Source of the DNA: Pedobacter sp. L105
Lineage (GTDB): Bacteria > Bacteroidota > Bacteroidia > Sphingobacteriales > Sphingobacteriaceae
Length of the DNA: 64,000 nucleotides
Direction: 5' to 3'
NCBI RefSeq assembly: GCF_009765875.1
Contig: NZ_LMUP01000003.1
Span: 94,646-158,645 of the forward strand
The translations under genes and the position numbers were made by a program. Each line of letters opens with the position of its first letter. The stretch's first letter is position 1. Shown piece by piece: positions 47,608-51,119 of this stretch. The notes under the pieces were generated by a model, which was given only the letters and a program-made list of their open reading frames with translations, was not told the origin of the DNA and did not search any database.

Positions 47608-47877
47608 ATGACTCTTTCTAATCAGCATATTAATTATATCAGAAGTTTTTTTTCTGGTAGGCCAGTAAAAAAGGCTTATGTATTTGGTATATATGCATGA
47701 GATGAAAATAGTGATATAGATATTCTGGTTGAATTGGATCATATGAAACCTATCGGAATGAAATTCTTTTCCTATCAGATTCGAAATAAAAAAGTGGGTC
47801 TAGTTAGCTATGAGGGACTGTCTAAATATGTTAAACCTTCTATTGATAAGGATAAGGTTTTAATATATGAAAGGTAG
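47608..47877 (+). pseudogene. MNT-type nucleotidyltransferase with internal TGA
   Basis: A 90-codon frame from ATG 47608 to TAG 47877, interrupted by TGA at 47698-47700. The parts read KKAYVFGIYA then DENSDIDILVELD, i.e. the GSxxR-x-x-SDxD catalytic motif with the Arg codon turned into TGA and the Ser replaced by Ile. The rest (KPIGMKFFSYQ, KDKVLIYER) fits the small nucleotidyltransferase partner of HEPN toxin-antitoxin pairs. No HEPN gene follows. Nonfunctional. Confidence 0.8.
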
Positions 47878-48037: not shown

Positions 48038-48349
48038 ATGCCCATATTAAGACCAAATTCCATACTTAATATTCCAGCTAAATATATTCAGATCAGAATT
48101 AGAAATTACAGCGACACCGAACATGGTAGCTGTAGTATTACCACAGAAATGGAAAGTCAGGATTACTCTTTTAAGCCCGACCAGATTAGGATTATCAAAC
48201 TTCAGCGTGGGGATGTACGGTTTGAAAATACTGGCAGAACAGAGTTAAGCATAAGATACAGTAAAAAGCCTTTTTTAAGAATATTAAAGGATCTCATTTT
48301 CCCATCCCACATATTTCACTTTTTTTGGATAAAGGTTAAAATTAATTAA
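48038..48349 (+). CDS. Hypothetical protein
   Basis: 103 residues, basic and aromatic-rich, ending in a hydrophobic segment (IFPSHIFHFFWIKVKI). Not recognised. It stands alone in AT-rich DNA with weak upstream signals, so it may be a real orphan gene or a chance ORF. Confidence 0.4.
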   Translation: MPILRPNSILNIPAKYIQIRIRNYSDTEHGSCSITTEMESQDYSFKPDQIRIIKLQRGDVRFENTGRTELSIRYSKKPFLRILKDLIFPSHIFHFFWIKVKIN

Positions 48350-48553
48350 TAGGTTTTAAAATTAATATTAAAGAAAAATAAGTTCTTTATTATGCTTTTT
48401 TATGGATGATTATTCCTATCTTAGTAATGTGATAGTTGATCGGTTATGATCGATTACTCAGTTTAATAATTGATTTTTAATCAAAAAAACTTTGTTTAAG
48501 TGGACGTAGGAATCTGATTGCACACAAAGTTATGGAGATTGAAAGCACTTTTT

Positions 48554-48671
48554 CTATCTTTCCGATAGCGATATGGCCGTTCTCTGTAGTGTGTGCAACG
48601 GGAATTTATTCCTCCCTTCCTACGGGGTACTACTTATGCATGCGGAGAGCGGCCATATTTCATACCGCTCT
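48554..48671 (+). ncRNA. Candidate structured RNA (6S-like hairpin)
   Basis: An 18-bp stem pairs 48571-48588 with 48641-48658, allowing three G-U pairs and no bulges. Its apical part holds a GGAA/TTCC hairpin (48601-48612). A small hairpin (CTATC/GATAG, 48554-48568) precedes the stem. A competing stem, AGAGCGG (48646-48652) with CCGCTCT (48665-48671), is followed by T-rich DNA. The GC content is much higher than in the surroundings. Single-stem shape and ~120-180 nt size resemble 6S RNA; a leader of the following short ORF is an alternative. Confidence 0.5.
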
Positions 48672-48713
48672 TTCTAAAGTTTTTCTTGCTTAAGGATCTT
48701 AAAATTTAAAGCA

Positions 48714-48869
48714 ATGAAGAAACTGTATCTAAAAGAATCCGTCTTTATTTTTTTCGCTATTGTGATCAGTCAGATGGCTACAAATTGCTTCGTAATTTCA
48801 TCAATTCAACATCAATGTGGGTTTAGTAAATTTTTCAGCTTTCAAGTCAAAGCCAAGCCTCCAGGCTAA
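48714..48869 (+). CDS. Possible small secreted peptide
   Basis: 51 codons from ATG 48714: MKKLYLKESVFIFFAIVISQ gives a positive start and hydrophobic segment like a signal peptide, followed by a Cys-containing polar part (NCFVISS, HQCGFS). It starts ~43 bp after the structured RNA. No family is recognised. Confidence 0.35.
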   Translation: MKKLYLKESVFIFFAIVISQMATNCFVISSIQHQCGFSKFFSFQVKAKPPG

Positions 48870-49016
48870 TTCTCTTTCTGTAAAATCTAATTCATAGACA
48901 ACATTTACAATAGGGATTTTATCCCAATGGCATCGCCATGTCTAAATTTTAATAAAATCATCATCAGTGTAGGAATTAAACTGATGGTCAATTTAATCAT
49001 TTTTAAAAAAATCACC

Positions 49017-49193
49017 ATGGAAGATCAAAAATCATGTTCATGTAAAAGAACTGAAATCGAGCAATACTATATGGATTTATTGAAACAACTCAATTTTTCC
49101 ATTCGTCTCTCAGAGCAAGAGAAAGCTGGGCAGGTGCTTTTTCTGCTAAAGCAATGGGGAAATGAACTGAATGAATGTTACAGACTTTGCTGA
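49017..49193 (+). CDS. Small hypothetical protein
   Basis: 58 residues from ATG 49017 (MEDQKSCSCKRTEIE); the longer form from 48927 has an unlikely hydrophobic extension. Soluble, helical and Cys-containing at both ends. Not recognised. Orphan in the AT-rich island. Confidence 0.45.
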   Translation: MEDQKSCSCKRTEIEQYYMDLLKQLNFSIRLSEQEKAGQVLFLLKQWGNELNECYRLC

Positions 49194-49244
49194 TCATTCA
49201 AAACCGTGTTATGATTTTGAGTTAAGTTTGTTTAATACCACTTA

Positions 49245-49320
49245 TAGTCCACGCATAGTCCACTCATTCACTATGAATTTAATTAAATTAGTACTAGATG
49301 AGTGGACAATGCGTGGACTA
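49245..49320. repeat. 23-bp inverted repeat around an AT-rich palindrome
   Basis: Left arm 49245-49267 and right arm 49298-49320 match at 22 of 23 positions as reverse complements. TAGTCCA occurs twice inside the left arm, and the right arm is followed by another TGCGTGGA. The 30-bp spacer contains AATTTAATTAAATT. May be an operator or the end of a lost element. Confidence 0.85.
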
Positions 49321-49468
49321 TGCGTGGAATATAATAGATCGATTACATAACACCTCCGGATCAAACTATTAGTGATTTGGGAAGTCTCTGTTTCCTCCTA
49401 AACAGAATAATATTTGGTAAATCTGAAGAGGTTCCAGAAGTGATCAGAAAAAAAGGAATGCTAAATTG

Positions 49469-49508
49469 TCGGAAATTATCGGAAATTACCGGAAATTATC
49501 GGAAAAAA
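49469..49508. repeat. 10-bp tandem repeat upstream of DUF6266-like gene
   Basis: Four consecutive units, TCGGAAATTA (x2), CCGGAAATTA, TCGGAAAAAA, exactly 10 bp each, ending 71 bp before the start at 49580. The unit length equals one DNA turn. Confidence 0.8.
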
Positions 49509-49579: not shown

Positions 49580-50374
49580 ATGGCAAAAAAAGATGGAAAA
49601 TTTATACGTGGCGCAATAGGTGATCTCGTATATAGGGTGGTTAATGAAAAACAATCTGTTTATCCGAAACCAGACCCGAAAAAATTGAAACAAACAGACA
49701 ACACAAAAAGGGCAGCTGAAGTTTTTGCAAGAGCAGGATTAATTGGCCGTTACCTCAGGGTATCTTTAGCTAACCAGATCAATAGTTATGCAGACTATAA
49801 GATGAAGAACCGGTTACTGGCAACCCTACGACAATGTTTAAAGGGTTCGCCTAATGAAACAACTGGGATTTTCAATTTTAAAGAAGACAGTTTTACCAGC
49901 TTAGAGGGCTTTGAGTTTAATGAGGATTCCAAACTCTCTAAATTGCTCTCTAATAGGTCAACAACCACTTTAAATGAAGGCATATTGACTGTTACCATTC
50001 CTGAAAATAAGATAGGAAGTGAATTGAAATTTCCGGGTAATACCTTTTATTGCAAAGTACTGGTAAACGTATCCCTTTGCCGGCTGGAGGATGGTTATAT
50101 GGAGAAAGAGGCTGAAAGTCAGCTGATCACAATAGCTAGGGATGAAGACTTACTAGAACAGCAAACGTTTAGTTTTAACGTGCCAGACGGCTGTTTATGC
50201 ATTGTTAGTACATTTCTTCAATATGCTAACTATGCAAAAAATAATCCATCGGTGATTAATCATAAAACGTTTAATCCCGGACAGATCAGCAAAGCATTGA
50301 TCACACCGGGTGTTTATCAGGATAACGACGACAGTAGCTGGGAAAAAATGGAGGCGAAGCCAAAACGCAAGTAA
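49580..50374 (+). CDS. DUF6266-like protein
   Basis: 264 residues with no signal peptide. The N-terminus (KDGKFIRGAIGDLVYRVVN) is similar in pattern to the DUF6266 protein downstream (G-x-x-RG-x-x-G-x-x) and is followed by a YRV/VYPKP stretch and a beta-rich body. Divergent paralogue of the next gene, 73 bp apart, same strand. Function unknown. Confidence 0.65.
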   Translation: MAKKDGKFIRGAIGDLVYRVVNEKQSVYPKPDPKKLKQTDNTKRAAEVFARAGLIGRYLRVSLANQINSYADYKMKNRLLATLRQCLKGSPNETTGIFNFKEDSFTSLEGFEFNEDSKLSKLLSNRSTTTLNEGILTVTIPENKIGSELKFPGNTFYCKVLVNVSLCRLEDGYMEKEAESQLITIARDEDLLEQQTFSFNVPDGCLCIVSTFLQYANYAKNNPSVINHKTFNPGQISKALITPGVYQDNDDSSWEKMEAKPKRK

Positions 50375-50447: not shown

Positions 50448-51119
50448 ATGGCAACAACAAAAAATGGGCTCCTCCGCGGACTTAGCGGTAAGGTAGGGCC
50501 GATAGTAGTCTGTAAAGGCAAGGATAAATCAATCGTAAAAATTCTTCCTAAAAAAACAACAAAAGCACCGAAACTGCCGCAACTTAGTCAGCGTGCTATT
50601 TTTAAAATGGTGAAACAGTTTATAGATCAAACTCAGCAGGTCATGCGGATCGGGTACTATGATTATTTGCACACAGAAAGACCTCTGAATGCTGCAACTG
50701 CTTATCATTTAAAAAATGCGGTTATAGGTGTTTATCCGGATTTCACCATGGATGCGGTTAAAATTAAGGTCAGCAGGGATCAGGGTGGTTTGAAACAGGA
50801 ATTTAATGCTACAGTTTCGATAGATGCAGGTGATATCCTGAAAGTAAGCTGGGATTTTGCAACAATTTATAACCCTTTTGAAATGCTGAAGCGAAAACTT
50901 GACCAGGCGGTATTGCTGATCTTTGATGAAACAAAGCAACTTACTTCTAGCCGTATTGGCGAGGTAACCAGGGCTGCAGGAAAACTTGAAGTGAGCTTGC
51001 CAAAAGCGTTTCAAGGAGATCAATTGCATTGTTATTTCTTTTTTGCTGCTGAGGATGGCAAAGTTTCAAACACTCAGTATCTGGGAGTGATCAGTAATTA
51101 TACACCAAGTATGATATAA
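50448..51119 (+). CDS. DUF6266 family protein
   Basis: 223 residues matching the Bacteroidota DUF6266 pattern: N-terminal KNGLLRGLSGKVGPIVVCK, PKKTTKAPKLPQLSQRAIF, and YHLKNAVIGVYPDF in the middle. The C-terminal half is beta-rich. Function unknown; widely distributed and often multicopy. Strong terminator directly after it. Confidence 0.8.
   Translation: MATTKNGLLRGLSGKVGPIVVCKGKDKSIVKILPKKTTKAPKLPQLSQRAIFKMVKQFIDQTQQVMRIGYYDYLHTERPLNAATAYHLKNAVIGVYPDFTMDAVKIKVSRDQGGLKQEFNATVSIDAGDILKVSWDFATIYNPFEMLKRKLDQAVLLIFDETKQLTSSRIGEVTRAAGKLEVSLPKAFQGDQLHCYFFFAAEDGKVSNTQYLGVISNYTPSMI

Follow-up and report, generated by a model that had tools for sequence, protein, structure and literature searches.

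The DNA at positions 48483-48693 (plus strand) of the window, that is, of the whole 64,000-nucleotide stretch of the Pedobacter sp. L105 genome analysed here, aligns end to end, in a permissive scan, with the model of the Rfam family RF01715, Pedo-repair (positions 1-211 of 211), scoring 67.9 bits with an E-value of 1.1e-14, and, judged by this match, is a divergent homologue of a known, functionally unexplained RNA family. With moderate confidence, we propose that Pedo-repair-like RNAs are two-state leaders which, together with a mini-ORF predicted to slow the ribosome, stand before uptake and thioredoxin genes. New with respect to the family are a competing stem (stem B), pairing strands private to each copy, a promoter-type box in a loop, a mini-ORF ending in Pro-X-stop, and a link to genes for regulators, SusC/SusD and TlpA.

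A divergent homologue of Pedo-repair

The window copy agrees with RF01715 in sequence and fold across the entire model, and the outer pairing of the family (P1, P1b and P3a) is present with covariation, helices 1-4 being paired in 86.5-97.7% of cells. The window copy does not reach the gathering score of the family (150 bits), nor does any of the eight copies of the RNA in the window's genome, and we therefore file it as a divergent homologue rather than as a curated member; at Rfam gathering scores the entire window yields no match. The earlier note had recognised no riboswitch consensus in the sequence; an RNA family does match it, and the element begins about 70 nt upstream (at 48483) of the stretch considered there, with a further conserved fold competing with stem B, the 18-bp stem of that note.

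Searches with RF01715 gave matches in 8 of 119 genomes of the genus and 21 of 399 genomes of the family, its cut-off being exceeded in a single genus genome (G047, Pedobacter sp. BAL39 or a twin of it). A covariance model of our own (R1), built from 32 copies with the window copy among them, matched in 43 of the 399 family genomes, representing 9 of 25 genera, and at the class level in 2 of 345 genomes, one of which is the window's own; these large genome searches were run with stricter filters, at which weak copies may be lost. Three other copies in the window's genome, recovered by BLAST, share no more than 68-69% identity with the window copy. A sequence pattern search of genome contigs returned BAL39 only (six contigs), the window's own records possibly lying outside the search, and the same pattern was not found in viral contigs.

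Throughout, set 1 comprises the 36 loci found by RF01715 and set 2 the 29 loci found by model R1 only, and alignment A1 was made from 32 copies of set 1, leaving aside its four most divergent members. For fold energies, T counts and box counts, 9 of the 72 covariance model matches were set aside (seven antisense or partial ones, the chance match L149, and L146, in which the RNA breaks off); identical sequences were then removed, leaving 61 copies for the T counts, 60 for the fold energies and 61 for the boxes. At L146 (near 3130-3333 of contig C11, genome G275) the RNA ends after the loop region, near the contig end, in an insertion-like break.

The 2010 listing of Pedo-repair is reportedly the work of Weinberg et al. 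In its table, the motif comes from Pedobacter, with 'y' entered under RNA and '?' under cis-regulatory (PMC2864571). Set against that tabulated entry (PMC2864571), the copies described here come from more genera, add stem B as a competing fold, the Pro-X-stop mini-ORF and a short motif behind it (motif 2), and have regulator, SusC/SusD and TlpA neighbours, with RadC confined to BAL39. The name 'Pedo-repair' was met in a single paper of the literature searched. Among the literature matches listed on small RNAs and leader peptides of SusC/TonB genes (Bacteroidetes, Pedobacter), nothing concerned this element, and the motifs looked for in a paper on EF-P (PMC11611912) were not found there.

Two mutually exclusive folds

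The structural features of the window copy are as follows.

48483..48693, plus strand: whole Pedo-repair-like RNA element (full-length RF01715 match, E-value as above)
48489..48495, plus strand: 5' arm (ACTTTGT) of hairpin P2h (RNAalifold, compensatory changes)
48524..48530, plus strand: 3' arm (ACAAAGT) of hairpin P2h (RNAalifold, compensatory changes)
48571..48588, plus strand: segment 2, the 5' strand of stem B (changes on both sides in 12 of 18 pairs)
48641..48658, plus strand: segment 3, the 3' strand of stem B (compensatory changes)
48644..48652, plus strand: 5' arm of hairpin P5, the competitor of stem B (minimum free energy fold; helix 9 of fold I, 73.9% of cells paired)
48665..48673, plus strand: 3' arm of hairpin P5 (minimum free energy fold, compensatory analysis)

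The 18-bp stem noticed earlier lies where it had been placed, 48571-48588 pairing with 48641-48658 (three G-U pairs) around a loop of 52 nt, and a competing hairpin is formed by 48644-48652 and 48665-48673. The description of the region as a highly structured RNA was likewise borne out, since the 231-nt region folds better than 198 of its 200 dinucleotide shuffles (z -3.1) and compensatory changes go beyond chance. The reverse strand is unusually structured as well (z -2.7, 1 of 200 shuffles as good), as is expected of inverted repeats. The earlier note had suggested looking for compensatory changes of the stem in homologues, and these are plentiful: across 32 copies, 94.8% of stem B cells are paired and 12 of the 18 pairs have changed on both sides. 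None of 500 shuffles reaches the values observed for stem B plus the inner hairpin, and every measure drops when the stem B partners are slid against each other. RNAalifold, applied unaided to the 32 copies, returned the 5' hairpin P2h and stem B. Furthermore, the non-Watson-Crick cells of stem B comprise 80 G-U as against 5 A-C, out of 575, which argues for a plus-strand RNA stem rather than a DNA palindrome; on this pattern of substitutions, we regard stem B as a plus-strand RNA stem. The 10 nt around its 3' end contain 5.7 T on average, and 4 in the window.

The second arrangement, fold I, is close to the Rfam structure: the loop of P2h, whose 28 nt between the arms contain most of the 5' strands of fold I, pairs with the stem B loop, and segments 1 and 2 pair with each other. 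Because segment 2 can pair either with segment 1 (fold I) or with segment 3 (stem B), the two folds compete. Counted with P4 and P5, fold I has changes on both sides in 34 of 49 pairs, a value as high as which was seen in none of 500 shuffles; the corresponding counts are 23 of 36 pairs for helices 1-6 and 20 of 26 for helices 1-4. Helices 5 and 6, which lie inside hairpin 1:2, show little covariation on alignment A1 (3 of 10 pairs), and by eye this hairpin is reconstituted with different letters in some groups. The strand bias of fold I is weak, with 27 G-U and 18 A-C cells in P1, P1b and P3a together. Conserved stretches of the alignment include AGAC and AAATC. The compensatory changes found in each arrangement thus support two mutually exclusive folds.

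Attenuators and transcription-terminating riboswitches consist of segments 1, 2 and 3, of which the second pairs with the first or the third. The same alternation is found here, as are two mutually exclusive conserved stems, with the reservation on the inner hairpin 1:2 made above; the differences are the 52-nt loop of stem B in the window, the modest U-stretch and the position of the ORF, which is behind the stem rather than before it. The earlier suggestion of a riboswitch- or attenuation-type leader is thereby upheld as to form (a pair of exclusive conserved folds, a short ORF and placement as a leader); no match to a riboswitch family was listed here up to E 10.

According to predictions that omit pseudoknots and take the stretch ending just past stem B, fold I is the minimum in 59 of 60 distinct copies, with a median difference of 12 kcal/mol, and the window copy is the only one in which stem B is the minimum, by 7.4 kcal/mol; with longer flanks, the predicted minimum of the window copy, too, turns to the fold I type. 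In all eight copies of the window's genome and in all six BAL39 copies, the predicted best partner of the 5' strand of fold I is the 3' strand from the same copy, the mean energies for own and other-copy pairing being -22.0 and -9.1 kcal/mol in the former and -23.4 and -12.5 kcal/mol in the latter. In these pairing models, the address strands of fold I are private to each copy.

Promoter-type boxes upstream of and within the RNA

In Bacteroidetes, the primary sigma factor is described as having TAnnTTTG for its -7 consensus (PMC7366714). Two boxes of this type are associated with the window copy.

48417..48424, plus strand: TATCTTAG, an imperfect TAnnTTTG match and likely upstream promoter (sequence)
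48555..48562, plus strand: TATCTTTC, the window's version of TAnnTTTG in the loop of hairpin 1:2, a possible inner promoter (position-conserved box)

A strict TAnnTTTG is present between -100 and -30 in 40 of 61 distinct copies, the window copy not being among the strict ones. The inner box occupies a fixed place, where 51 of 61 distinct copies have a strict TAnnTTTG and 60 of 61 have TAnnTT, compared to a background of 284 in 11562 windows; by eye, it has no evident -33 element. A short RNA begun at the inner box would lack segment 1 and form stem B only. If real, such transcripts would explain why stem B is conserved despite not being the predicted preference of the long RNA.

A mini-ORF ending in Pro-X-stop

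The 51-codon ORF reported to follow just after the structure is indeed there, and its start codon is part of a further small hairpin.

48686..48691, plus strand: 5' arm (TTGCTT) of the start-codon hairpin (sequence)
48709..48714, plus strand: 3' arm (AAGCAA) of the start-codon hairpin, running into the ATG (sequence)
48714..48869, plus strand: 51-codon leader ORF with the end ...KAKPPG-stop (ORF list; penultimate Pro across copies)

A start-codon hairpin is seen by eye in many copies, for example as CATTGCTCA/TGAGCAATG or CATTGTTCA/TGAACAATG. The common trait of the mini-ORFs is the end of the encoded peptide. When the ORF was chosen by an ATG rule blind to the C-terminus, the penultimate residue was proline in 30 of the 36 set 1 copies, compared to 270 of 4537 control ORFs (ATG-started, 10-130 residues, from the same loci, with nested starts and the mini-ORFs themselves included); in the other two frames the counts were 0 of 15 and 0 of 34. 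The same kind of rule gave a penultimate proline in 16 of 28 of the more distant set 2 copies, 28 of the 29 loci having an ATG in range. Among the set 2 misses, some arose because the rule took another ATG although a Pro-type end is present (e.g., ...GIPP or ...CAPE), and two carry the proline one place earlier (KPAD and KPAG). The ends include KPPG (window), KPPS, DPPG, APE, PPE, PPD and IPP, and the proline codons vary synonymously among CCA, CCT, CCC and CCG. In set 1, mini-ORFs with a Pro-type end have bodies of 14 to 129 residues, which have little in common between groups; those of copies other than the window's are basic or unrelated, conservation being restricted to the end. This pattern looks like selection on how translation ends, as far as coding sequences can tell. 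The signal-peptide-like start which had led the earlier note to think of a secreted peptide is not common to the other copies. A candidate conserved ORF inside the RNA itself, starting from the frequent AAAATGCCC, was dropped upon inspection by eye, the ATG being absent in many copies of the second group.

The closest parallels are with two leader systems. In TnaC, the leader of the Escherichia coli tna operon, a proline next to the stop codon arrests ribosomes (PMC8429421). Both TnaC as described there and the mini-ORFs are short leader ORFs with proline at the end, and in both an arrested ribosome would govern what follows, which for the present case is a prediction; the conserved proline at or next to the last residue is present in the proportions of set 1 and set 2 copies given above. 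The proline of TnaC is the last residue, however, and TnaC senses tryptophan, whereas here the proline is mostly penultimate, the body is not conserved and a two-state RNA precedes the ORF. In Rhodobacter capsulatus CutF, a C-terminal proline-rich motif is described as working together with a stem-loop (PMC9973294). This arrangement at cutO shares with ours an upstream ORF with a C-terminal proline motif and an RNA stem-loop before the next gene; CutF, in the same account, is an exported copper sensor with a CxxxC motif, whereas the mini-ORFs have, by eye, no common signal peptide or metal motif.

The region behind the mini-ORF

Two further features follow the mini-ORF in the window.

48913..48942, plus strand: motif 2, GGGATTTTATCCC followed by ATGGCATCGCCATG, two small inverted repeats (genome pattern scan)
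49017..49193, plus strand: small ORF, its frame open from 48927, related to a protein of 79-81 aa (BLASTP cluster, 5 loci)

With up to three mismatches, motif 2 occurs at five places in the genome, every one of them near an RNA copy. The product of the small ORF matches no Pfam family; its relatives of 79-81 aa are encoded 1.8-2.8 kb behind the RNA at four other copies of the same genome and come after a gene for a protein of 409-426 aa at three of these four places. Since the relatives mostly follow this larger gene, it may have been lost at the window.

Terminator-like hairpins were found behind 7 of 56 mini-ORFs (shuffled mean 2.05, maximum 5 in 20 rounds), and a classical terminator at this place, being only slightly above chance, is not relied on. 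A stretch with C in excess of G follows the mini-ORF in 23 of 31 set 1 and 12 of 25 set 2 cases (background 44%), base composition thus favouring a Rho site in set 1 only. The mini-ORFs for these composition and terminator scans were chosen for a Pro-X or Pro end, so the scans say nothing on the end itself.

Several observations concern the DNA farther downstream. An imperfect inverted repeat of GTGGACTATGCGTGG-like units lies just past the small ORF (49240-49340, by eye), and a short tandem repeat of CGGAAATTAT/CGGAAATTAC units (49466-49505, by eye) precedes an ORF at 49580-50374. The latter has no Pfam match and is adjacent to a second ORF (50448-51119) that belongs to DUF6266 (PF19781, E 6e-28). 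Relatives of these two ORFs are found near RNA copies in G024, in BAL39 and at another locus of the window's genome, in either orientation.

Genomic context of the RNA copies

Gene neighbourhoods were compared at 64 loci (36 of set 1 and 28 of the 29 of set 2, the chance match G305b being excluded), with neighbours labelled through BLASTP to reference proteins that had themselves been labelled by eye, and a sample checked with Pfam and NCBIfam. A SusC-type gene lies behind the RNA at 17 of 36 set 1 and 23 of 28 set 2 loci (40 of 64; this and the following counts are raw ones), SusD at 16 and 21 and a TlpA-type gene at 12 and 16 loci of the respective sets. A divergent regulator-like gene precedes the RNA within 400 nt at 17 of 36 and 26 of 28 loci (43 of 64), and the RNA is flanked by a divergent gene and SusC together at 15 and 21 loci, respectively. 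The sampled SusC matched NCBIfam TIGR04056 (469.6 bits) and Pfam Plug, the sampled SusD matched Pfam SusD-like_3, and the sampled TlpA-type protein matched thioredoxin/redoxin families. HTH_3 scored above the cut-off in two sampled divergent genes and below it in a third. Of the 43 divergent genes, 18 are nearest to HTH references and 25 to a kind of 146-158 aa, one example of which had no Pfam or NCBIfam match, the term 'regulator' resting there on inspection by eye.

In the window's own genome, six of the eight copies precede a gene for a protein of 342-426 aa, and two of these six proteins, when examined, matched no Pfam family; seven of the eight copies are without a divergent gene of the kinds looked for. 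RadC lies behind 5 of 36 set 1 loci and 0 of 28 set 2 loci, all five being in BAL39 (PF04002 for the one examined), and the 'repair' in the family name probably reflects these BAL39 neighbours. The window and four other set 1 loci (5 of 36) have none of the associated genes looked for. Given this absence and its predicted preference for stem B, the window copy is probably a remnant or a reduced module.

In five loci with the leader and SusC (L064, L065, L073, L076 and L079), the opposite strand encodes a MauE-like membrane protein (BLAST cluster; PF07291 for one of them), accompanied in some of these loci by small, secreted-looking proteins encoded on the same strand, by eye; leader/SusC loci with the MauE-like protein may form one functional system. 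Upstream of the RNA in the window, 47640-47877 (plus strand) appears by eye to be a broken gene, with an in-frame stop, for a small nucleotidyltransferase, which we take to be MntA-like.

A proposed two-state leader and competing readings

How the two-state leader might work can be sketched from these elements. The RNA would take either fold I, the long paired structure, or stem B (fold II), and this choice would determine to what extent the downstream genes are transcribed and translated. RNAs started at the upstream promoter would adopt fold I, and those begun at the loop box, or with segment 1 held by something, would form stem B, which, followed by its moderately U-rich stretch, may stop transcription. 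A ribosome slowing at the Pro-X-stop of the mini-ORF would alter access to the RNA behind it, including motif 2, and would thus provide a second layer of control comparable to TnaC or CutF.

Two folds that compete within a leader, and conserved stretches such as AGAC and AAATC, could also be those of a ligand-binding riboswitch, in which fold I would be an aptamer stabilised against stem B by a metabolite or ion and the mini-ORF just the first small gene. We consider this doubtful: no riboswitch family matches the locus up to E 10, and the conserved Pro-X-stop end would be left unexplained. Aptamer cores are usually invariant, and the variable pairing found here, largely copy-specific as in a pairing device, therefore counts against a riboswitch.

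A comparably tentative alternative takes the loop box as a real promoter and assumes that a short RNA made from it regulates the long RNA of the same copy; joined to this, and no firmer, is the proposal that in this short RNA stem B carries a loop able to base-pair with that of the 5' hairpin. The fixed place of TAnnTTTG (51 of 61 copies) and the copy-specific complementarity (14 of 14 copies of two genomes) are consistent with such a nested pair of RNAs, and if stem B belongs to a short RNA of its own, its conservation makes sense despite fold I being the predicted minimum of the long RNA in 59 of 60 copies. However, the inner box lacks, by eye, a -33 element and could equally be a conserved RNA loop. 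If taken further, this idea suggests, at a similarly low level of confidence, a self-addressed device of two RNAs at each locus: the upstream promoter would yield a long RNA in fold I, and the loop promoter a short RNA with stem B only, the loop of which would carry a private address that best matches the 5' hairpin of its own copy. The device would gate a free-bodied mini-ORF that parks the ribosome at Pro-X-stop, and hence the SusC/SusD/TlpA operon, and several such devices could operate in one cell without cross-talk.

That the peptide itself is the effector, a short signalling or toxic product read by the neighbouring regulator, with the RNA only controlling its synthesis, appears improbable. 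The presence, at 43 of 64 loci, of a divergent regulator-like gene within 400 nt, and the conserved peptide end, would fit this scenario, but the bodies, of 14 to 129 residues, have little in common between groups, and the end is kept in Pedobacter copies that are without a divergent gene of the kinds looked for (seven of the eight copies in the window's genome).

A mobile repeat or a DNA-level inverted repeat without RNA function, which would account for the multiple copies in a genome, the patchy distribution (8 of 119 genomes of the genus), the recurrent neighbours and the weak strand bias of fold I (27 G-U and 18 A-C), is very unlikely and was ruled out as the main reading by the strand-biased covariation of stem B (80 G-U versus 5 A-C), despite the little bias in fold I; compensatory changes in both folds and the identity of only 68-69% between the window copy and three other copies of its genome also speak against it. 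Finally, the 6S-like RNA proposed in the earlier note, to which a promoter-like box within the loop of a long hairpin might point, is hardly credible, as an all-Rfam scan of 48300-49000 listed no 6S family up to E 10 (6S-Flavo, RF01685, included) and the RNA is present in up to eight copies per genome, eight in the window's own, often in leader positions in relatives; family search, position and copy number together rule it out.

Leader control has been little studied in this phylum. Should the two-state leader hold, an Rfam family of unknown function would gain a testable role, as a leader that precedes uptake-type operons in the family to which Pedobacter belongs, and, if the mini-ORF is kept only for its end, it would be a clear example of a leader under selection for the way its translation ends.
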